DNA of 64,000 nt from Dermabacteraceae bacterium TAE3-ERU5 (GTDB lineage: Bacteria > Actinomycetota > Actinomycetes > Actinomycetales > Dermabacteraceae). The stretch's first letter is position 1; the number at the start of each line of letters is the position of its first letter. Made by a program: the position numbers and the translations under genes. Shown piece by piece: positions 5,509 to 15,408 of this stretch. Under the pieces are notes generated by a model, which saw nothing but the letters and a program-made list of their open reading frames with translations, searched no databases and was not told the DNA's origin. The stretch is taken from contig JAHUUK010000006.1 in NCBI GenBank assembly GCA_019218375.1, positions 62,001-126,000 of the forward strand. The letters run 5' to 3'.

Positions 5509-5520
5509 GCAGAAACAAAT

Positions 5521-5551
5521 AAAAGGGCACCCGCCTAGCGGGTGCCCTTTT
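5521..5551 (+). terminator. Rho-independent terminator after the first glycan operon
   Basis: A perfect 14-bp stem (5521-5534 with 5538-5551) with a three-base CTA loop, an A-run before it and a T-run at its 3' side. The A/T symmetry means it could work in both directions, also ending transcripts from the gene relic on the minus strand. Confidence 0.9.
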
Positions 5552-5565
5552 ATTTCGGGAAACGC

Positions 5566-5855
5566 TTACTTTTCTGCGTCCGCCGTAGCGGCTGCGATGG
5601 TGCCGTCCTCGTCCCAGGTTCGCCATTTGAGCGGTCGCACTTCCACCATCGGGCGGTCGCCTTGTACTCGATGCGCGCATCCGGTTTGCCGGAGCTGATG
5701 TTGCGCCACACGTCATGGATCTCTTCATCGCTTAGGCGGGAAGCCTTAGCCCAGTGCGGGGAGAACCAATCGAGGTCTCTCCGGTGAGGGCAGAAGATGC
5801 GGTTCCCTGGCGCACCTTGCGTGCCACCTGGATGGGGGGAACTGCTGCTGAGCAT
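5566..5855 (-). pseudogene. Frameshifted relic of an unknown gene
   Basis: Read on the minus strand, one frame gives protein-like sequence around DLDWFSPHWAKASRL and SDEEIHDVWRNISSGKPDARIEYK. At about 5660 the sensible reading shifts to another frame, giving DRPMVEVRPLKWRTWDEDG and ending AEK at a TAA (5566-5568). One extra C in the + strand at 5660-5661 would join the two parts. The 5' end is unclear; the ATG at 5855 is only the limit of the open frame. I do not recognise the family. It may be the tail of an older locus gene left behind by recombination. Confidence 0.5.
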
Positions 5856-6140
5856 CGGTTTTAAGGTTACTTGTCACGCTGTTGACGGAAAAGATTGGAA
5901 CTATTCGTACACTTTTCTACCTAGGCGATGCTGATATCAGTCAAGGGCGAAGCTTTGAAATGTGGGGCAGGTAAATGGAGTGTGGCACATTATTGCTCCG
6001 CATGGTGCCGGAAGCAGTGTGTTTCCGAGAAACTTAGGTGATGCCCCACGCCTCTCGCGGAGCAGAGACTTCATTCCAATGAGAGCGAGCCTCTGCTTTA
6101 CGGGTACCTAGCTATCCATACAGAAAGCGACACTTAGAAG
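5856..6140. other. Intergenic region before the ABC exporter
   Basis: No convincing gene is seen. The sequence is AT-rich relative to the flanks. Immediately before the exporter ATG there is GACACT (6129-6134) with a 6-nt gap, the same geometry as other start-site -10 boxes in this window, so the exporter may be leaderless. No good -35 is visible. Confidence 0.4.
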
Positions 6141-7958
6141 ATGACAGACAAAGTCAAGTCAGAGCTCAGCCTACGCGTAACACTGTCTCAGCTCAACCGG
6201 TTTTTCTCTCGCGGAGTAAAGATACGCTTGGCTCTGATTTCGCTATTCTCCATCGTGCTTGGCTTAATGGAAACTGCAGGCATTATGCTAGTTCTGCCTC
6301 TGGTAGACCTGGCGGTCGGTAAAAATACTTTGCCTGCGGTTGCTGCTGATATTGCTTCCGATTTGGGTCTTAACACTAATCGGAAGCTTGGGGTGGCATT
6401 GGTCTGTGCAGTAGTTGGAATATTTATACTAAAGGACCTTGGGAGTATCTGGTTTAACTGGTGGAAGTCGCGTTTCCTTGCTGTTCAGAGAGTGGAAACG
6501 CAGTACCGTATGATGGAAGGGTATATGTCCCTTCCCTGGCAGGAGTATCGCAAGTATTCCACTGCTGAAATAATACGTACGTTTCGTGACGCCGTGGATA
6601 GGCTTTATGGTTCTGTAGTTGGCGGCTTAATTAGTTTAGTTTCCGCTGTGTTTAGTGTTATCTCGATCTTTTTTGCGCTATTTTTCGCTATTCCTGTTCC
6701 CACCCTAGTAATCATGATTTATTTTTCCATAGGGGCGGGGTTTTACATGCGCTTTGTTCGTCCGCGCACAACGGGCGCGGGCGAGATGATTATGGAAGCT
6801 TCCGTGCAGAGCTATCTGAGTGCCCTGCATGGACTGGGAGCTTACAAGGAAATAACTCTACGGCATACAGAGAAATACTTCACCAAGAATTATAAAAGGG
6901 CTGCCATTAATGTTGCTGAGGCTGGCAGGGTTGCCGAATTTTATTCGGCCATCCCTAGGTTTCTTCTAGAGATTATCTTTATGTCTGCAGTTGGTTTACT
7001 GCTATTTTACATGTTTATCGTAGGCGATCAGGGGTCGGCTGTGGGGTCAATGGCGCTGTTGGTGGCTGCAGGCTTCCGGATCCTTCCGAATATCTCGGCA
7101 ATTATATCTGCTGTTAACAGTGTGCGTTTGGGGGCTGGCTCTCTTGATATTGTTTTCAAGGAATCTGCTGTCGCTACACGTAACTTGTTGCCGCAGCACA
7201 AAGAGTTGCGGCGGATGGAATATAGTAAGGAAATTTCCCTTCAGAATGTGCGTTTTGGTTATAGCGACTCTGATGGAGAGGTAGTCAAGGGAGTTAGCTT
7301 GAACATCCCCTACGGGAGTTCGGTAGCTTTTGTGGGCGGTTCTGGGGCCGGTAAAACTACCCTGGTAGATATCATCTTGGGGCTGCTCAGGCCAACTTCG
7401 GGGGTCGTACTGGTCGATGGCCAGGATATCTCCGACAACCCTCGTTCCTGGCAAGAAAATACCTCCATGGTTGCTCAGGATGTCTATGTTTCTGGTCGGT
7501 CAGTGCGCGAGAACATTATTTTTGATGAGCCGGTGGAATTGGCTGATCAAGAGCAGCTTAAAGCCACCGTGGAACGTGCTCAGCTTGCTGACTTGGTGGC
7601 TTCCCTGCCGGAAGGGCTGGACACTCTTTGTGGAGAGAGGGGAACGAGGCTCTCCGGTGGGCAGCGGCAGCGAATAGGCATCGCGCGCGCACTATACAGG
7701 AATCCGTCTCTTCTCGTTCTCGACGAAGCTACATCGGCACTTGACAATGAGACCGAAAAGAAGATCACAGATACCATTGATTCGTTGAGTGGTGGCGTCA
7801 CGGTAGTGGTTGTTGCGCACAGGCTTTCCACCGTTAAGAACGTTGATCAGGTGGTTTATCTGGAAAACGGTCAGATCGCGGGGATCGGGTCCTTCCGTGA
7901 GCTGCAAAAGACGAACGAAAAGTTTGCGCAGCTCGTGGCGCTCGGGAAGCTGGATTAG
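6141..7958 (+). CDS. ABC exporter, fused membrane and ATPase domains
   Basis: 605 residues. Residues about 30-340 form a six-helix exporter-type membrane domain. The ATPase domain follows, with Walker A GGSGAGKTT (about 399-407), signature LSGGQ (about 504-508) and Walker B SLLVLDEATSALD. The layout matches MsbA/PglK-like half-transporters. Beside a priming transferase and glycosyltransferases, flipping a lipid-linked oligosaccharide or exporting glycan is the likely job (inference). It would act as a homodimer in the plasma membrane. The gene is clearly AT-richer than both neighbours and sits next to a gene relic, which suggests transfer. Confidence 0.88.
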   Translation: MTDKVKSELSLRVTLSQLNRFFSRGVKIRLALISLFSIVLGLMETAGIMLVLPLVDLAVGKNTLPAVAADIASDLGLNTNRKLGVALVCAVVGIFILKDLGSIWFNWWKSRFLAVQRVETQYRMMEGYMSLPWQEYRKYSTAEIIRTFRDAVDRLYGSVVGGLISLVSAVFSVISIFFALFFAIPVPTLVIMIYFSIGAGFYMRFVRPRTTGAGEMIMEASVQSYLSALHGLGAYKEITLRHTEKYFTKNYKRAAINVAEAGRVAEFYSAIPRFLLEIIFMSAVGLLLFYMFIVGDQGSAVGSMALLVAAGFRILPNISAIISAVNSVRLGAGSLDIVFKESAVATRNLLPQHKELRRMEYSKEISLQNVRFGYSDSDGEVVKGVSLNIPYGSSVAFVGGSGAGKTTLVDIILGLLRPTSGVVLVDGQDISDNPRSWQENTSMVAQDVYVSGRSVRENIIFDEPVELADQEQLKATVERAQLADLVASLPEGLDTLCGERGTRLSGGQRQRIGIARALYRNPSLLVLDEATSALDNETEKKITDTIDSLSGGVTVVVVAHRLSTVKNVDQVVYLENGQIAGIGSFRELQKTNEKFAQLVALGKLD

Positions 7959-8110
7959 CTGGCACGGTCCTGTGAGAAGCCTGTGATAATGCGCCAATTA
8001 TCTTATTTTTCTAATTTGTAGAGCGCGCTTCGGATTATAGTACCCACAGGAAGACTACATAAAATAGCCAAAATCTCGGCTGATAAAGAAGTTTTGGGGA
8101 GGCTGCCCTA

Positions 8111-9622
8111 GTGAACGGGCCCGGTGATCGCGCAGATGCCGCATTGGCGCATGGAGCGCTGGCGATGCGCCGCAAGAGCCTGCGTCAGCGTTTTCCGTTG
8201 CGCACAACCGGGATCAGTGCTGCGCTGGTCTTGGCCGATGTATTGGTGTTGCTGGTAGTCACATGGATCGCTATATGGCTGCGGAGAATCATACCCTTCT
8301 TTGCCACGGGCGATAACTTCAACGTGATTCTGTACCAGGTGGGCCTTCTAACCTGCGTGGTCTGGGTAGTGGCGATAGCCATTTTCGATGGTTATTCGGC
8401 AAAACTGCTTGCGCACGGATTCGAGATCTACCGGTCTGTTTTTAATGCGTCCCTTCTCGCGGGGGGCGGCATCGGGGTTGTCTGCTACCTGGCCAGCTTC
8501 GAGCTTTCGCGCGCTTTTTACATCGCCCTTTTGATCATCGTGCCGCCCGCGCTGATGCTGGTCCGCCTGTGCGCCAGGGCTCTCCTGCACAGGATGCACC
8601 GTGCCGGGCGTGGGCTTTCCCGGGTAATGCTGGTCGGTGAACCGGGCGCGGTGAAAGAAATTGCCCTCACCCTGCAGCGCAACGACTGGCTTGGCTACGA
8701 CGTAATCGGCTACCTGAATCCGTACGTAGATAGCGATAACCCGGAAGGTTGCGAGGCCCTCGCCGGGGTGCCGTGCCTCGGTTCGGCGCATTCGCTTAGC
8801 GTGGCGTTGACCGATTACGATCCGCAGATCCTGCTGTTCACGGAGGGCGCTACGGAGTCCACCATCTCGTTCCGGCGCACCGCGTGGGAACTGGAAGACC
8901 AGGGCATTGACGTGGTCGTGGTGCCCGCTATGACCGAGATTTCCTCGGACCGCGTGGAGCTGCGCCCCGTTGCGGGCCTGCCGCTCATGCACCTGGAACT
9001 GCCGCGCACGATCGAAGCGGGGCGCTGGACCAAGCGCGCCTTCGACGTGGTGGTTGCCAGCGGTATTTTGCTGGTCCTTTCCCCGCTGTTGCTTGTAATC
9101 GCCCTGGTCATCAAACTGGGAGACGGTGGCCCTGTGCTGTTCAAACAGACCCGCGTCGGCCGCGACGGGGAAGAGTTCGGCTGCTTCAAGTTCCGTTCCA
9201 TGGTTCCTGACGCAGAGGAACGCCTGGCCGAGCTGGCTAAGGAAGCGCAGGACAAGGGTAACCTGGTCATGTTCAAGATGGCCGACGATCCGCGCATTAC
9301 CAAGGCTGGTAAGTTCCTGCGCCGCTTCAGCCTGGATGAATTCCCGCAGCTGATTAACGTGCTGCGCGGAGAGATGAGTCTGGTCGGGCCGCGCCCGGCG
9401 CTGCCCAAGGAAGTAGCCCTCTATGACGACATCGCCCGTCGGCGCCTTTCCGTGCGCCCGGGCATGACGGGGCTGTGGCAGGTGAGCGGACGCAGCGATC
9501 TTTCCTGGGAAGAAACGGTGCGCCTCGATCTCTACTACGTAGATAACTGGTCCTTCGTGCGTGATCTAGGCATTCTGGCCCAGACCGCAAACGCCATGGT
9601 TTCTTCTCGCGGAGCCTACTAG
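8111..9622 (+). CDS. Polyprenyl glycosylphosphotransferase (priming enzyme)
   Basis: 503 residues: N-terminal membrane helices, a Rossmann-like middle region (SRVMLVGEPGAVKEIAL) and a C-terminal bacterial sugar transferase domain from about residue 305 (KRAFDVVVASGILLVLSPL). Typical motifs follow: GPVLFKQTRVGRDG, FKFRSMV, SLDEFPQLINVLRGEMSLVG, PRP and RPGMTGLWQVSGRS. These WbaP-type enzymes move a sugar-1-phosphate from a UDP-sugar to undecaprenyl phosphate, the first step of glycan assembly. The GTG start is supported by GGGGAGG at 8096-8102. Two bases separate its stop from the VanZ-like gene. Confidence 0.92.
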   Translation: MNGPGDRADAALAHGALAMRRKSLRQRFPLRTTGISAALVLADVLVLLVVTWIAIWLRRIIPFFATGDNFNVILYQVGLLTCVVWVVAIAIFDGYSAKLLAHGFEIYRSVFNASLLAGGGIGVVCYLASFELSRAFYIALLIIVPPALMLVRLCARALLHRMHRAGRGLSRVMLVGEPGAVKEIALTLQRNDWLGYDVIGYLNPYVDSDNPEGCEALAGVPCLGSAHSLSVALTDYDPQILLFTEGATESTISFRRTAWELEDQGIDVVVVPAMTEISSDRVELRPVAGLPLMHLELPRTIEAGRWTKRAFDVVVASGILLVLSPLLLVIALVIKLGDGGPVLFKQTRVGRDGEEFGCFKFRSMVPDAEERLAELAKEAQDKGNLVMFKMADDPRITKAGKFLRRFSLDEFPQLINVLRGEMSLVGPRPALPKEVALYDDIARRRLSVRPGMTGLWQVSGRSDLSWEETVRLDLYYVDNWSFVRDLGILAQTANAMVSSRGAY

Positions 9623-9624
9623 CC

Positions 9625-10122
9625 ATGCCACGCTCAGGCCTGCCACGCAGGATAGCCCTGGCTGGTGCGGCTCTGAGCGGCACCGCAGGGTTCCTAATGG
9701 TTGCCTGGCCTAGCGGCTGGCAGATCAACCGTCTGGTGGTAAACCTTTACTTCGCTAGCGTCGGCAGGCTCGGGCTGATTCACGAAATAAGCATTGACCA
9801 GTTTGACGGTTTCCTAAACGTGGTGCTCTTTGCGTTGCCGTTTGCTTGCCTGGCCTTCGCCTACCCGAGCTACTGGTGGCTCCTCGTCGGCTTCTCCTTG
9901 ACCACGCTCGTGGAATCGCTGCAGTTCATATCGGAACTGCGCGACGGCAGCCCGGTAGACGTCATCACCAACACCCTCGGTACTTTTATCGGCGTAGCGA
10001 TAGGCTGCGAACTTTCCCGCCGATATTACGGGCGGCGCGACGCCAACGATCCCAGCGTTCATGACGCAGATCTTCCTCGGTCGGCACTCGACCCAAGCGG
10101 ATACGCAGATGGTCAGGGTTGA
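9625..10122 (+). CDS. VanZ-like membrane protein
   Basis: 165 residues with four or so hydrophobic helices. The segment DQFDGFLNVVLFALPFACL and the later SPVDVITNTLGTFIGVAIG match the D-x-x-x-N-x-x-x-F-x-P and D-x-x-x-N-x-x-G pattern of VanZ-like proteins. VanZ itself lowers teicoplanin sensitivity; the biochemical role of relatives is not established. It directly follows the priming transferase. The last 45 codons or so, a hydrophilic tail, lie antisense to the end of the convergent nucleotidyltransferase gene (137-bp overlap). Confidence 0.75.
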   Translation: MPRSGLPRRIALAGAALSGTAGFLMVAWPSGWQINRLVVNLYFASVGRLGLIHEISIDQFDGFLNVVLFALPFACLAFAYPSYWWLLVGFSLTTLVESLQFISELRDGSPVDVITNTLGTFIGVAIGCELSRRYYGRRDANDPSVHDADLPRSALDPSGYADGQG

Positions 10123-10852
10123 CGTGCAGCGCCTGCCAAAAAATGCGGGCTTTATTCCTGAAACCCCGCGCCTCCTGCAGGCGGGCGATCCATATTTCCG
10201 TGGGGTTGGCCCCCGCCGAAACGGCTTTCCACAGGCGGTAGCCGCGCTCTTCGCGCACGGTTTCGATCTGCCCAATGGCGGCCGCGAGCGCAACCTCCCC
10301 GCCCAGGGAAGAAGCGAAAGCGCGCAGCTGCTGCCTTTCGGAATCGTTCAGGTCCTCCCAGCAGGTGCGGACGTCGTGCACGGCCTTCCCCATCTGGTCG
10401 CGGGCCGCGTGGACCAGCAGCAGCAGCCTCTGTCCGTTGAGGGAGGGGCGGTAGCAGTCCCAGCCGCCAAGTTCGACCTTTTCGCGATCGCGCCAGAGCG
10501 CCGCAAAGGTGGTTGCGGGATCCCGGTCAATACCGGGGAAGGAACGGTGCACGTCTACGGTGCCCCACACCGAGTGGTAGTAGGTGGCCGCGTGCTGGAA
10601 GACGGATCCGTGCTTAAAGTGCGTGTAAAGCTCCCAGCCGTTCTCTTCCAGCGTGCGCAGGTAGGCCGACAGGTCTTCCGGGGCCACCAGCACATCGCTG
10701 TCGGTAGAGGCGGGGCGCCCTGCGGAAAGCTGCGGCGACAGGGTAATTCCCTTGATGTGCAGTACGCGCGCGCCGGAAAGATTTGCACAGTGCGTCAGCG
10801 CGGCATGGCAGAGCTGCAGTTGCGCAGGCACACCAATAGTCATCGAATCCAT
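9986..10852 (-). CDS. Nucleotidyltransferase-fold family protein (NTP_transf_5-like)
   Basis: 288 residues. The N-terminal third carries LHIKGITLSPQLSAGRPAST followed by DSDVLV (residues about 31-56). This fits the KG...(T/R)DxDhhh signature of the uncharacterised nucleotidyltransferase family NTP_transf_5, with D51 and D53 as candidate metal ligands. Members recur beside HPr-kinase-like and PqqD-like genes in glycan or peptide modification loci, as here. Its substrate is unknown. It is divergent from manA with only 43 bp between starts. The ATG at 10852 is used; the next in-frame ATG is at 10843. No clear ribosome site is visible. Confidence 0.72.
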   Translation of the reverse strand: MDSMTIGVPAQLQLCHAALTHCANLSGARVLHIKGITLSPQLSAGRPASTDSDVLVAPEDLSAYLRTLEENGWELYTHFKHGSVFQHAATYYHSVWGTVDVHRSFPGIDRDPATTFAALWRDREKVELGGWDCYRPSLNGQRLLLLVHAARDQMGKAVHDVRTCWEDLNDSERQQLRAFASSLGGEVALAAAIGQIETVREERGYRLWKAVSAGANPTEIWIARLQEARGFRNKARIFWQALHVNPDHLRIRLGRVPTEEDLRHERWDRWRRAARNIGGKVRSLSLRR

Positions 10853-10895
10853 GTTGGCATGGTACAGCCGTGCCGCCGGAAGGAGCTAAAAAAGC

Positions 10896-12107
10896 ATGTG
10901 GAGTATTGAGGGACAGCGCCAGTCCTATGCCTGGGGATCGCCTTCCGCGCTTCCCGAGTTTTTGGGCAGGGAAAGCGACGGCGCTCCCTTTGCGGAGCTT
11001 TGGTTCGGTGCGCACCCGATTGCCCCGGCCCAGGTGGAAACGGATGCCGGCTGGCAGCCGCTTGACCGCATGATCGCGGATAGGCCGCGCAGGATCTTGG
11101 GGGATGCCTCCCTGCGCAGGTTCGGCGCTACCCTGCCGTACCTGCTGAAGATGATCGCCCCCGCGCAGCCGCTTTCTTTGCAGGTGCACCCTTCTTTGGA
11201 CCTGGCGCGCGAGTCTTTCGATGCCGAAGAAGCGGCCGGGGTGCCGCTTTCCGCGGACGGGCGAAACTACCACGATGCTAACCATAAGCCGGAGATGGTT
11301 TACGCGCTGACCCGCTTTGAGGCACTCAGTGGCTTCCGCACGCCGCGCCGCGCGGCCTCGATTCTGGAGGGGCTGGGGACCGACCTGACGGATAGGCTGC
11401 ACGCCCTGTTGATCGAGCAGCCGAACGCGAACGGTATGCGCGCCGCCTTCCGGGCGCTATTTTCGCCGCACCTAGCCGATGCGCAGAACGTGGTGGAGCG
11501 GGTAGCCGCCGCGTGCGCGGAACGTTTAGCCTCCGGCAAGTCCCCGTCCCCGCGCATCGATGCGGTGGTCGGCTCGTTACATGCGCACTATCCGGGAGAC
11601 ACGGGTGTTTTGGCTGCTCTGCTGCTTAACCCGGTAACGCTCAATCCGGGCGAGGCGATGTTTGTGCCCGCCGGGGCGGTGCACTGCTACCTGTCGGGCC
11701 TGGGCGTAGAGATCATGGCTAATTCCGATAACGTGCTGCGCGCCGGGCTTACCAAGAAGCGCGTGGACACCGAGGAAATGCTGCGCTGCGTGAGCTGCGT
11801 AGCGGCTCCGCCCGTGCGTATCGCACCGGAAAAGGTGACCGACGCGACCGAGGTCTTTTACGTTCCCGTTGATGATTTTGAGCTGTCCGTAACCACCCTG
11901 GCGGATCCGCCCGGCATGTTCCAGCCGCACGAGAGAATCCCGGGCAGCGGCGCGCGTATTCTGCTGGCGCTGGACGGAGAGGTGATGGTGCAAACCGACC
12001 TTGGCCGCCGCCGGTTGCGTTCCGGGCAGGCGGTGCTGGTTTCCACCGAGGACGGCTCGGTGAGCGTCGGCGGCAATGGGCGCCTCGTACAGGCGAGCGT
12101 GGCATGA
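10896..12107 (+). CDS. manA: Mannose-6-phosphate isomerase, class I
   Basis: 403 residues. It converts fructose-6-phosphate and mannose-6-phosphate, supplying GDP-mannose for glycan synthesis. Zinc-site residues are visible: Q96 and H98 in LQVHPS, E133 in HKPEMVYAL and a His near 263 in VPAGAVHCYLSGLGVEI. The segment NSDNVLRAGLTKKRVD is characteristic of the family. A GGAAGGAG ribosome site lies at 10877-10884. It leads a tight operon; its TGA overlaps the ATG of the PqqD-like gene. Two glycosyltransferases upstream look mannose-specific, so a supply role is sensible. Confidence 0.95.
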   Translation: MWSIEGQRQSYAWGSPSALPEFLGRESDGAPFAELWFGAHPIAPAQVETDAGWQPLDRMIADRPRRILGDASLRRFGATLPYLLKMIAPAQPLSLQVHPSLDLARESFDAEEAAGVPLSADGRNYHDANHKPEMVYALTRFEALSGFRTPRRAASILEGLGTDLTDRLHALLIEQPNANGMRAAFRALFSPHLADAQNVVERVAAACAERLASGKSPSPRIDAVVGSLHAHYPGDTGVLAALLLNPVTLNPGEAMFVPAGAVHCYLSGLGVEIMANSDNVLRAGLTKKRVDTEEMLRCVSCVAAPPVRIAPEKVTDATEVFYVPVDDFELSVTTLADPPGMFQPHERIPGSGARILLALDGEVMVQTDLGRRRLRSGQAVLVSTEDGSVSVGGNGRLVQASVA

Positions 12108-12400
12108 GTATTCGCGTCCGGTTAGCTGAAACGGCCACCTACGCCGAAGACGGCGAGGGATACGCCTTCGGGGTGTTGCCTTCCGGTCCGGCTTTTCGCG
12201 TGCAGGGGCCGGGGGTGCTCTGGCTAGAGACCCTGCGCGATACCCGCAACGAATGGGCGAGCGTGGATTCCCTGCTGGATAAGATCTTGGCGCAGGAGCC
12301 GGAGGCCCCGGCCGACGCTAGGGAAATACTGCTTCACGAACTGGAAGTTCTGCGCGAACTGGGCGCCGTGGTAACAGATCAGATTCCCGCGGGAAAGTAG
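12104..12400 (+). CDS. PqqD-like small protein (RRE fold)
   Basis: 98 residues. The pattern FRVQGPGVLWLETLRD, then a helical stretch and ending LEVLRELGAVV, is that of PqqD-like proteins: short strands, an aromatic in a helix and a final (L/F)-x-x-L-x-x-x-G-h-(L/V). PqqD-type domains bind peptide leaders and hand them to modifying enzymes (RiPP recognition element). No precursor peptide is evident nearby, so its partner is unknown. It overlaps manA by 4 bp and precedes the MauE-thioredoxin gene by 9 bp. The family assignment is by pattern. Confidence 0.65.
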   Translation: MSIRVRLAETATYAEDGEGYAFGVLPSGPAFRVQGPGVLWLETLRDTRNEWASVDSLLDKILAQEPEAPADAREILLHELEVLRELGAVVTDQIPAGK

Positions 12401-12409
12401 AATAAAAAA

Positions 12410-13435
12410 GTGATACTTACTCAGGTTTCTGCCGTTGTTCTAGCGCTGGTACTACTGGTTGCTGCCGTTGGAAAACTGCAGGATAAGGACGCCGACGTGG
12501 CTCGGGAATGGAGCCAGTTCCGGGTACCCGCGCTGTTTAACGTGCGTTTTTTGCGTAGCGTGCACCCCTTTGTAGAAATAGCGATAGCGATTGGCCTGGT
12601 GGTTTTGCCCGGCCTGGTGCGGCTGCCGGTAGCGCTCGCGGCTGTCCTGCTGACCCTCGTTTATCTATTCTTTGTGGCCCGCTCCTACCTGATGCCGGAA
12701 GAAGTTACCTGCGCTTGCTTTGGCAGCGCGGAAACCACCGTGATCACCCTGGGCACGGTAGTGCGTAATTTGCTTCTGCTGGTTCTGGCGGCCTGCGCTT
12801 TCTGGGGTGCTGCGGTGAACGAACCGCCTGCGCTCTGGTTTAGCAACCCGGCCGCGGTGCTGGCTGCCCTGCTGGCTTTCGGCACCGGCTGGTTTAGCGC
12901 CGTGCGCACCCCGGAAACCGTGAAAGAAGTTACGCAGGTGCAGATGCCCTACGCAGACGAGGTGGAGGACGACGGCCTTTTGCCGTACGTGCGTACCTTC
13001 ACTCCGCCGCTGCGGGTGAAGAAGACCGACGGCACCGTGACCGATCTGGTTGAGCTTTCAAGTAAGCGGCCGCAGCTGCTGCTGGCACTTTCGCCGTCTT
13101 GCACCGGCTGCATGAAGATCGGCGCGCGCATCCCGGAGATCAGGGAGCGCCTGCCGCAGGTGGACGTTTCCTTCATTTCTTCCCTGGACCCGAACGAATT
13201 TCTGGATAAGCGCCCCGAGTGGGGGCCGCACGGCCTGCAGGACGTAGACCGCCTGGTGCTCCCCACGCTGCGCGTGGTCAGCGTTCCCACCGCGGTTTTG
13301 CTGGGGGCCGACGGCATGCTCGCGGCCGGTCCTACCCCCGGAGTTTCCGGCGTGATGGACCTGGTTGCCGACATAGAGGCGGAGCTGCGGGGAATGGATA
13401 TTCCGGTAGTTACCGATGGGGGTGATCGCGGATGA
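12410..13435 (+). CDS. MauE-like membrane protein fused to thioredoxin-like domain
   Basis: 341 residues. Residues 1-165 form a four-helix MauE/DoxX-type membrane domain with the cysteine motif CACFG at 101-105. Residues about 195-330 look like a TlpA/thioredoxin domain with CTGC at 231-234 (SPSCTGCMK) and a cis-Pro candidate in SVPTAVLL. The two Cys motifs suggest electron or disulfide relay across the membrane. In methylamine utilisation MauE is needed for maturation of a disulfide-rich enzyme subunit; the target here is unknown. The GTG at 12410 is the start; the stop overlaps the next ATG (ATGA). Confidence 0.75.
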   Translation: MILTQVSAVVLALVLLVAAVGKLQDKDADVAREWSQFRVPALFNVRFLRSVHPFVEIAIAIGLVVLPGLVRLPVALAAVLLTLVYLFFVARSYLMPEEVTCACFGSAETTVITLGTVVRNLLLLVLAACAFWGAAVNEPPALWFSNPAAVLAALLAFGTGWFSAVRTPETVKEVTQVQMPYADEVEDDGLLPYVRTFTPPLRVKKTDGTVTDLVELSSKRPQLLLALSPSCTGCMKIGARIPEIRERLPQVDVSFISSLDPNEFLDKRPEWGPHGLQDVDRLVLPTLRVVSVPTAVLLGADGMLAAGPTPGVSGVMDLVADIEAELRGMDIPVVTDGGDRG

Positions 13436-14502
13436 AAACGCTGCGTATTCGCGTGGTAGACACGCCGGTGGCCGTCCGGGTGGAGAACGAAGCGGTGGCG
13501 GAGCTGCTTGCTTCTTTGTGGGCACACGTGAGCGAAGCGGGGCTTTCCGAGCCCGCTGTCACAGTGGATATTCCCGAACAGGTTGTTGCCGGGCGCAGCG
13601 AAGCCGAAGCCGCCTACGCTGTGTCTTGTCTGGTGACGCGTGAGCTGATCGAGCATCACAGGGGCGGGTCTTTCCTGATGCTGCACGCTTCTGCCGTGGA
13701 ACTGGCTGGCCGCGCCGTGGTTTTTGTAGCCCCGTCGGGAACCGGGAAATCTACCGCCTCGGTCTACTGCGCGCAGCAGCCGGGGGGACGTTACATAACC
13801 GACGAAACGGTTTACATAGATACGGACACCCTGTTGGTTTACCCGTATCCAAAGCCTCTTTCGCGGGTGGTTTCGCAGTTCCCGCGGGTCAAGGTGGATC
13901 TTTCCGTTGCAGAGCTGGGCATGAGCCCGAGCGAGGGGCCGGTTCCGCTCGGCAAGATAGTGCAGTTGGTGCGCGATAAGAGCGATATTCGCCTGGAACA
14001 CCCCGGGGTAAGCGAAAGCCTGGGCATGGTAGCCCCCATGACCTCGGGGCTTTCCGACATGTCGGGTGGCGGACTGGCCAAACTTGCTAGCGTGCTAGAT
14101 GCCGTGGGCGGCCTCACCGTGGTGCACTACGAAGAATTTTCGGACTGCTACGAGCGCATAATGGCGGTTGCTCAGGCGCCCCGCGAAAAAACCTGGGAGC
14201 GGATGGCGATTTCTTCCGGTGATACGGAAACCGCGGATCTGAACGGCGGCAGCCTGCTGGCCGCACCGGTGCAAGACGCCTTGGAAACCGACGACTGCAT
14301 GGTGGTCTTGGCCGACAACATGGTTTACCGGCTAGACATGCTCACCGGTCTGGTTTGGAGCCTGCTAGACACCGCCAAAGGCACTTCTCTGCAGGAGCTG
14401 GAAAAGAAGGTGGTGGAGCTGATCGGTCCGCACCCCGACGCTGCCTTACTGGTTGGCCAGGCGTGCGATCGGTTGCGGGAAAACGGGCTGCTGATCGGCT
14501 AG
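13432..14502 (+). CDS. HPr-kinase-like protein with C-terminal PqqD-like domain
   Basis: 356 residues. H85 in FLMLHAS, then VVFVAPSGTGKSTAS (Walker A about 100-108) and YITDETVYID (123-130), match the HPr kinase/PEP carboxykinase-like P-loop fold. Residues about 284-356 form a second domain: VVLADNMVYRLDMLTGLVWS, a helix, then ending CDRLRENGLL. That is a PqqD-like pattern. No HPr or PTS genes are visible, so it is probably not a sugar-uptake regulator; HprK-related proteins in modification clusters phosphorylate peptides or other targets. It is the last gene of the manA operon, and its TAG overlaps the convergent phosphatase TAG within CTAG. Confidence 0.72.
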   Translation: MKTLRIRVVDTPVAVRVENEAVAELLASLWAHVSEAGLSEPAVTVDIPEQVVAGRSEAEAAYAVSCLVTRELIEHHRGGSFLMLHASAVELAGRAVVFVAPSGTGKSTASVYCAQQPGGRYITDETVYIDTDTLLVYPYPKPLSRVVSQFPRVKVDLSVAELGMSPSEGPVPLGKIVQLVRDKSDIRLEHPGVSESLGMVAPMTSGLSDMSGGGLAKLASVLDAVGGLTVVHYEEFSDCYERIMAVAQAPREKTWERMAISSGDTETADLNGGSLLAAPVQDALETDDCMVVLADNMVYRLDMLTGLVWSLLDTAKGTSLQELEKKVVELIGPHPDAALLVGQACDRLRENGLLIG

Positions 14503-15044
14503 GCGCTACGCCTGCGCCGCCCGCCGCCTCCTGGGGCGGTTAGCCACTGCACCAGCAGGGTCAGGTTTTCGTCGATGATGCGCGCAGCCTCTTCGGCCAC
14601 CTCCGGCCCCTGCCGGTAGGGGTCGGGTACGTCAGTGACGCTGCGCTGTTTTTGGCTTCTCACCCAGTCCCGCATGCTCGCCAGGGAAAACGGCTCGGCT
14701 TCGGGTAGGGACCGGGCTCCCGTGATGACCCCGATCTTCGCTGCGTATTCAGGCCAGTCCTCCAAAATACGCTGCCGCTGTTCCCAGGTGGCGGTAAGAA
14801 TCAAATCGGCTTCTTTACCTATCCGGGCGCTGAATTTACGCGCGCGAAATGCGCCGGGATCGAGGCCGTAGCGTGCGCATTCCGGCAGCATGATTTCGTT
14901 TACGCCCTGACCGACCAGCGCTAGGGTGCCCGCGGAAGAAACCTTTATACCGGGCACCTTGCTGAGCTTTTTCTCTAGCAGTAACTGAGCAAAAGGAGAA
15001 CGGCACACATTTCCGGTGCATACAGTAACGATTCTAAAAGACAT
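14499..15044 (-). CDS. Low-molecular-weight protein tyrosine phosphatase
   Basis: 181 residues. The phosphate-binding loop CTGNVCRS (C-x5-R-S) sits at residues 9-16 and the general-acid motif appears as DVPDPYR near residue 140. Such enzymes remove phosphate from tyrosines and in glycan loci (Wzb type) control polymerisation and export through a partner kinase; no BY-kinase gene is visible in this window. It is convergent with the HPr-kinase-like gene, sharing a CTAG stop overlap. The tail ends in an Arg-rich GGGRRRRSA. Confidence 0.9.
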   Translation of the reverse strand: MSFRIVTVCTGNVCRSPFAQLLLEKKLSKVPGIKVSSAGTLALVGQGVNEIMLPECARYGLDPGAFRARKFSARIGKEADLILTATWEQRQRILEDWPEYAAKIGVITGARSLPEAEPFSLASMRDWVRSQKQRSVTDVPDPYRQGPEVAEEAARIIDENLTLLVQWLTAPGGGGRRRRSA

Positions 15045-15408
15045 AGCAACTTATCTGATAGTGTTTTGGTGCGACGCTATATGGGCACATGATAGCATGT
15101 CCGGCTTTCATGGTTTGCGACGTGCGTGTTGGTTTTTGTTGCCAAGTCTTATTTGATCCGGGTTGGGTGATCTCGGCGCTAATTGCGGCTTGGTGTTAGC
15201 TTGTTTTATCTACTTGAACGGGAACCCTTTTATGCGGAATGGGTGCCCCTCCTTTGTTTTGTCTTTAAATCGATTTTTTTATTTGAGATTGTGGGTGCGT
15301 GTTTATTGGATTTCATAAATGACGCGAGGGGCCTTATCGCCATTTGGCTTATGTGTAAATGATCTGATTGTTCAGGCCGTCATTGATTCCGCCCCGCGGG
15401 AGGATTAG
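15045..15408. other. AT-rich intergenic region, no gene called
   Basis: About 360 bp clearly AT-richer than the flanks. It must contain the phosphatase promoter (minus strand). Short open frames of 27-37 codons exist on both strands but lack a convincing ribosome site or -10/start geometry. None looks like a modification-system precursor peptide. Confidence 0.5.

Follow-up and report, generated by a model that had tools for sequence, protein, structure and literature searches.

A kinase and nucleotidyltransferase cassette in an actinobacterial exopolysaccharide locus co-occurs with an N-terminal Tat-type tag on exported proteins: a candidate tag-directed modification system

In a 64,000-nucleotide stretch of the 1.9 Mb genome of Dermabacteraceae bacterium TAE3-ERU5 (contig JAHUUK010000006.1, positions 62,001 to 126,000; hereafter the window), an exopolysaccharide locus ends in a group of modification-type genes surrounding manA (Table 1). 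Its core, which we call the cassette, comprises an HprK-like kinase, an NTP_transf_5 nucleotidyltransferase and PqqD-like modules, probably of the type named RRE (recognition element of ribosomally synthesised and post-translationally modified peptides, RiPPs). An earlier note on this DNA had placed these genes at 9986-14502 and described three of them as translationally coupled with manA, and both descriptions hold: manA and the gene for the PqqD-like protein overlap by 4 nt (ATGA), the gene for a MauE-thioredoxin fusion (MauE-Trx) starts 9 nt downstream of the latter, and a second 4-nt overlap joins the MauE-Trx and HprK-like genes. The NTP_transf_5 gene is divergent from manA, with a gap of 43 nt, and has a 137-nt antisense overlap with a VanZ-like gene (window 9986-10122); similar antisense overlaps are found in several relatives. 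Two features were absent from that note: the HprK-like protein carries a further PqqD-like domain at its own C-terminus, and candidate substrates are encoded elsewhere in the genome, namely exported proteins sharing an N-terminal tag of the twin-arginine translocation (Tat) type. We propose, with a probability of roughly 0.55, that the cassette encodes the enzymes of a system that modifies exoproteins as directed by this tag.

Table 1. Genes of the cassette and its surroundings, in window coordinates; scores are in bits and are followed by the cut-off of the model.
Feature	Position	Strand	Evidence
NTP_transf_5 nucleotidyltransferase, 288 aa, core enzyme	9986-10852	-	PF14907, 54.9 (cut-off 31.2)
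ManA, mannose-6-phosphate isomerase	10896-12107	+	TIGR00218, 228.7 (cut-off 116.2); synteny
Free-standing PqqD-like (RRE-type) protein, 98 aa	12104-12400	+	Aligned homologues match PF05402; related to the C-terminal domain of the HprK-like kinase
MauE-thioredoxin fusion, membrane thiol-redox protein, accessory	12410-13435	+	PF07291, 61.9 (cut-off 27)
HprK-like kinase, core enzyme, with C-terminal PqqD-like (RRE) domain at ~14254-14499	13432-14502	+	Residues, fold, hhalign
Low-molecular-weight protein tyrosine phosphatase (LMW-PTP), convergent with the HprK-like gene	14499-15044	-	PF01451, 61.9 (cut-off 23.2)
Priming glycosylphosphotransferase, neighbour in the exopolysaccharide locus	8111-9622	+	TIGR03025, 408 (cut-off 295); syntenic
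VanZ-like membrane protein, neighbour	9625-10122	+	PF04892, 39 (cut-off 30.1)
PglK/MsbA-like ATP-binding cassette (ABC) exporter of the glycan locus, neighbour	6141-7958	+	PF00005, 112.9 (cut-off 25)

Both enzymes have confidently predicted folds in which the catalytic residues are intact. The AlphaFold2 model of the HprK-like protein (predicted local distance difference test, pLDDT, 92.4) has a PEPCK/HprK fold (Foldseek: PEPCK 3.7e-6, HprK/P 3.7e-4), and its P-loop (G103, G105, K106) and acid pair (D124, E125) are conserved, as are H85, K141 and R181. The NTP_transf_5 model (pLDDT 93) has a nucleotidyltransferase fold closest to MenT1, LnuA, ANT(2'') and FKRP, and the carboxylates D51, D53 and D100 of the DxD...D motif of such enzymes are invariant in 37 homologues. 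Sequence searches of the PDB with the profiles of both enzymes returned only chance matches to P-loops or nothing. The final 80 residues of the HprK-like protein are predicted to form strands followed by three helices, and comparison by hhalign shows this domain to be a homologue (96.5%, E 7.5e-10) of the free-standing PqqD-like protein. In MauE-Trx, the C-terminal CxxC (C231, C234) is invariant in 11 homologues, as is a CxCFG motif.

The domain names proposed in the earlier note fared unevenly, PF14907 and MauE (PF07291) passing their cut-offs, the HprK-related model falling below its own (TIGR04352, HprK_rel_A: 42.2 bits, curated cut-off 200) and the window copy of the PqqD-like protein matching no Pfam or NCBIfam model at all. 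Since nothing in these two collections exceeded a curated cut-off for either the PqqD-like or the HprK-like protein, we used homologue sets, profile-profile comparison and structure for both. Of the HprK-like homologues, 17 of 20 match TIGR04352 at E<=0.01, and six of 11 aligned homologues of the PqqD-like protein match PF05402 at E<=1 (best 7.7e-7), a model that has no match in the source genome.

The expectation that the genes form a conserved unit beside priming transferases was confirmed, also outside this strain. An HprK-like homologue is present in 17 of the 36 genomes of the family that were searched, and most loci of these 17 genomes keep the order priming transferase, VanZ-like, NTP_transf_5 (reverse), ManA, PqqD-like, HprK-like, with MauE-Trx and LMW-PTP genes near the cassette; this frequency and the recurring order indicate that the gene set is not a chance assembly. 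In distant actinobacteria the core is reduced to NTP_transf_5 with a directly following PqqD-like gene, plus an HprK-like gene to which a PqqD-like domain is fused or adjacent, usually in loci of polysaccharide type. As this core lacks ManA, the isomerase is a family-level neighbour in the Dermabacteraceae, and MauE-Trx, found in 22 of 40 tag-bearing genomes (association with the tag, Fisher 7e-15), is an accessory; the isomerase and redox protein that had been seen as additions to the set are thus both there, neither of them in the core. In the genus of the Brachybacterium loci, five genomes (G004, G011, G009, G017, G019) keep MauE-Trx without NTP_transf_5, and in G004 and G011 tagged proteins are still present, from which MauE-Trx may also serve tagged proteins. 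The phosphatase neighbour is tied to the system by a fusion of LMW-PTP to the HprK-like kinase in one genus (L102:8104-9567, PF01451 52.1, cut-off 23.2). Seven loci have LytR-CpsA-Psr (LCP) ligase genes no more than 10 kb from a cassette gene. Signal peptidase I genes were observed near the cassette at L104:11952-12632 (11 nt), L119:13227-13937 (6 nt) and L183:3844-4563 (1260 nt), and are possibly dedicated peptidases for the tag.

Where the earlier note saw no precursor peptide, we found candidate substrates of another kind: exported proteins with a SRRTVAKGAAWAVPA...APAxAxS-type motif at their start occur repeatedly in the cassette neighbourhoods of relatives, and eight tagged proteins are encoded in the source genome. 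The tag, S-RR-x4-G-x-A-W-x2-P-x8-P-A-x-A-x-S, is N-terminal and of fixed length, with a constant spacing between RR and the terminal Ser, and its S/T-RR, hydrophobic stretch and AxA site (in a 67-tag profile and in 40 independent tags) predict export by the Tat pathway. Tagged genes lie near HprK-like or NTP_transf_5 genes in loci of the Brachybacterium group (L029-L033, L037, L039). Arrays of roughly five to seven such genes directly follow HprK-PqqD in a different family (L098, L099, L102, L113, L114). Beyond the tag, the proteins (roughly 150-500 aa) are mostly unrelated to each other and have almost no Pfam or NCBIfam matches, one of them carrying a choice-of-anchor G domain (NF033766, 135 bits, cut-off 45). 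Among 80 tagged proteins examined, none had an LPXTG motif and at most two had a weak C-terminal hydrophobic tail. Variants with the Trp replaced (RRQVLIGSAIAVPA...PARATS) were noticed on larger proteins of one cassette genome (L103:5937-7283 and 7530-9389).

Presence of the tag follows that of the cassette closely. In 218 genomes sampled from the order, with the cassette scored by an NTP_transf_5 of this type, the cassette was present in 37 and the tag in 40: 36 genomes had both, one the cassette only, four the tag only and 177 neither (Fisher 1.7e-35; 4.4e-10 when an exact test is stratified by genus to take out inheritance between genera, both P-values ignoring residual relatedness and thus to be read as orders of magnitude only). 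In a second, independent set of 33 genomes picked solely by an NTP_transf_5 relative, 31 carried the tag, with Tessaracoccus, Granulicoccus, Propionibacterium and Cutibacterium porci (Propionibacteriaceae among them) and Marmoricola included; the two misses were metagenome-assembled genomes. The genes are also physically close, 48 of the 145 listed tags in cassette genomes lying within 10 kb of a cassette gene when 1.5 would be expected. We regard a functional link between cassette and tag as very likely.

Two simpler identities of the tag can be dismissed. A general actinobacterial Tat signal is ruled out by the rarity of the tag in a phylum-wide sample (8 of 317 genomes), in which matches from beyond the order were borderline. 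Nor does the tag mark exopolysaccharide loci as such: of the 218 genomes, 127 have the Wzz/tyrosine-kinase gene of these loci, and 90 of the 127 have no tag. Across the 127, 35 genomes have both tag and cassette, one has the cassette only, two have the tag only and 89 have neither. The HprK-like gene by itself is a weaker predictor than NTP_transf_5, as strong homologues occur in four tag-free genomes and a permissive profile matches P-loops in 207 of the 218. Close relatives are not independent samples, and tag and cassette could in principle be unrelated traits that mark the same clades. We consider such lineage inheritance very improbable, because both are distributed patchily within genera and still match (g15, six genomes with both, one with the tag only and seven with neither; g33, four with both and five with neither; g11, three with both and four with neither), because the association survives stratification by genus and recurs across several orders in the genomes chosen by the cassette, and because tags and cassette genes are linked on the chromosome.

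Several observations do weigh against the cassette acting on tagged proteins. The tag occurs without the cassette in three to four genomes (G004, G011, G132; G067 is borderline) and the cassette without the tag in one, none of the eight tags of the source genome is near the cassette, and HprK-like homologues without NTP_transf_5 are found in the tag-free genomes G136, G188 and G212. The terminal Ser of the tag is shifted or absent in 7 of 65 tags, with the Ser one or two residues off in most of these exceptions, and its conservation could be due to signal-peptidase specificity, for which the handful of ordinary Tat signals compared is too small to be a strong control.

Of 40 tags found in the independent genome set, all had both Arg, the Trp, both Pro and the Ser (each 40/40), while the residues flanking the Ser (positions 16 and 18) varied; these tags were found with a model of the full tag, which favours Ser. 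With a model ending before the second half of the tag, the Ser was in place in 58 of 65 matches from other loci. Within P-A-x-A-x-S it is residue +2 from the expected AxA cleavage site, and conservation of the tag ends right after it.

The leader peptides by which ribosomal substrates are recognised are bound by RRE domains (PMC7470986). In lasso precursors the Ser at the C-terminus is phosphorylated by a homologue of HprK, and for pseudomycoidin the phosphate then receives one or two hexoses from a nucleotidyltransferase (PMC8498205). By analogy with these RiPP and lasso precedents, the tag might be a leader that two PqqD-like modules bind and present to both enzymes, one RRE working with NTP_transf_5 and the other fused to or beside the kinase, and the substrates would be full-length secreted proteins. 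The HprK-like kinase would phosphorylate a hydroxyl residue, for which the near-invariant Ser is the most plausible candidate, and NTP_transf_5 would then attach a sugar or (sugar-)nucleotide to the Ser phosphate. As the Tat pathway exports folded proteins, an ATP-dependent modification in the cytoplasm, ahead of export, would be coherent. Signal peptidase would then cut off the tag, and the modified N-terminus could tie an otherwise anchorless protein to the polysaccharide of the locus, with LMW-PTP in a putative role of phosphate removal and MauE-Trx in thiol redox outside the membrane. A connection to the glycan is suggested by the location of the cassette, by the seven loci with LCP genes and by Actinomyces oris, in which LcpA glycosylates the surface protein GspA (PMC6381275). 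On balance, we think it probable that tagged proteins are covalently modified, whereas the exact chemistry and site, proposed by analogy, are tentative. It is similarly conjectural that the tag represents a box for sorting and modification at the N-terminus that has not been described so far, a serine counterpart of the lipobox in Actinomycetota in which RRE-bearing enzymes would phosphorylate and then glycosylate or nucleotidylate the new N-terminal Ser for anchoring to exopolysaccharide.

The co-occurrence and proximity data would also fit if the cassette were a dedicated chaperone and control system for export. PqqD-like modules would then hold the unusual Tat signal while the protein folds, this chaperone or docking to Tat would be regulated by the kinase, the phosphatase and the nucleotidyltransferase, and no modification would stay on the mature protein. 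The conserved part is the signal itself, ending right after the Ser, the kinase is paired with LMW-PTP and in one genus fused to it, and PqqD is described as a peptide chaperone in a reference quoted in PMC7470986. We find this explanation rather unlikely, because covalent modification better accounts for a pair of catalytic enzymes that have an RRE each, a near-invariant Ser stands just past the predicted cleavage site and the fixed length of the tag exceeds what Tat requires.

The constant siting of the cassette in exopolysaccharide loci raises another question, whether the enzymes modify the polysaccharide, a lipid-linked precursor or an undetected small peptide, the tagged exoproteins being co-resident as glycan binders. 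FKRP, one of the enzymes closest to NTP_transf_5 in fold, attaches ribitol-phosphate to a glycan, and the tags of the source genome are unlinked to the locus. RRE domains, in contrast, imply a peptide substrate, most genomes with such a locus but no cassette are tag-free, and tags adjoin HprK-PqqD in several families. No peptide is shared among the small open reading frames near the cassette in relatives; these encode phosphatases, RRE proteins or tagged exoproteins, and the small-precursor hypothesis was rejected. A glycan, lipid-linked precursor or small peptide as the substrate appears unlikely. The suggestion made earlier, that phosphorylation or nucleotidylation of a carrier is coupled to glycan export, remains compatible with our data, which favour tagged exoproteins over a carrier.

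Modification of tagged exoproteins by the cassette would share elements with several known systems. HPr-rel-A, from a proteobacterial context, has the same three kinds of protein, with a homologous HprK-like region and, as here, a PqqD-like protein and a nucleotidyltransferase nearby, so that the likeness drawn in the earlier note stands for the trio. It does not extend to family membership, as the kinase falls outside the curated HprK_rel_A family, and here the kinase has a C-terminal RRE, the nucleotidyltransferase an RRE of its own, and the set is linked to an N-terminal Tat tag. PEP-CTERM/exosortase, LPXTG/sortase and the bacterial lipobox likewise place one short sorting tag on many unrelated exoproteins, with a co-occurring dedicated gene set; here a Tat-type tag stands at the N-terminus, and the genes include a kinase and a nucleotidyltransferase, not a transpeptidase. 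We know of no RRE, HprK-like or NTP_transf_5 protein in the LcpA/GspA glycosylation of A. oris. What that case shares is an actinobacterial surface protein that receives a glycan (PMC6381275), GspA differing from the tagged proteins in being anchored to the cell wall by sortase. The lasso peptides paeninodin and pseudomycoidin have in common with the cassette the logic of HprK-homologue kinase, nucleotidyltransferase and RRE on a ribosomal substrate (PMC8498205), a short peptide there and probably exported proteins here, and no lasso B2 protease (PF13471) was found in the source genome.

The pairing of tag and cassette suggests an undescribed route to mark, modify or anchor surface proteins, and provides an uncharacterised HprK/PqqD/nucleotidyltransferase cassette with concrete candidate substrates. 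A literature search, whose coverage left out most subscription journals, found no paper on the tag motif, on HPr-rel-A or on HprK-related proteins together with exosortase or exopolysaccharide. If the proposal is right, leader-directed, RiPP-like chemistry would act on whole folded secreted proteins, and Actinomycetota such as Rothia, Cutibacterium, Actinomyces, Micrococcus and relatives of Brachybacterium would have a tag on surface proteins that goes unrecognised by the Pfam and NCBIfam models searched.

The surroundings of the cassette in the source genome are those of a glycan locus. Upstream lie the priming glycosylphosphotransferase, the ABC exporter, which scores 294 bits with the PglK model, under the cut-off of that model, and glycosyltransferases. 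A fused Wzz/tyrosine kinase is encoded outside the window, past its edge, as are a NeuB-domain protein and a CMP-sugar cytidylyltransferase; the latter two lie ~3.0-6.1 kb ahead of window position 1, and the glycan is probably of the nonulosonic (sialic-type) acid kind. The NeuB-domain protein is fused to CBS and TIM-barrel domains (L027:14717-16966) and adjoins the cytidylyltransferase (L027:13949-14656). Two intergenic stretches of the window (5509-6140 and 15045-15408) are unlike the congener G001 (L028), in which the gap before the ABC exporter is absent and an extra gene (L028:5050-5862) replaces the second stretch.

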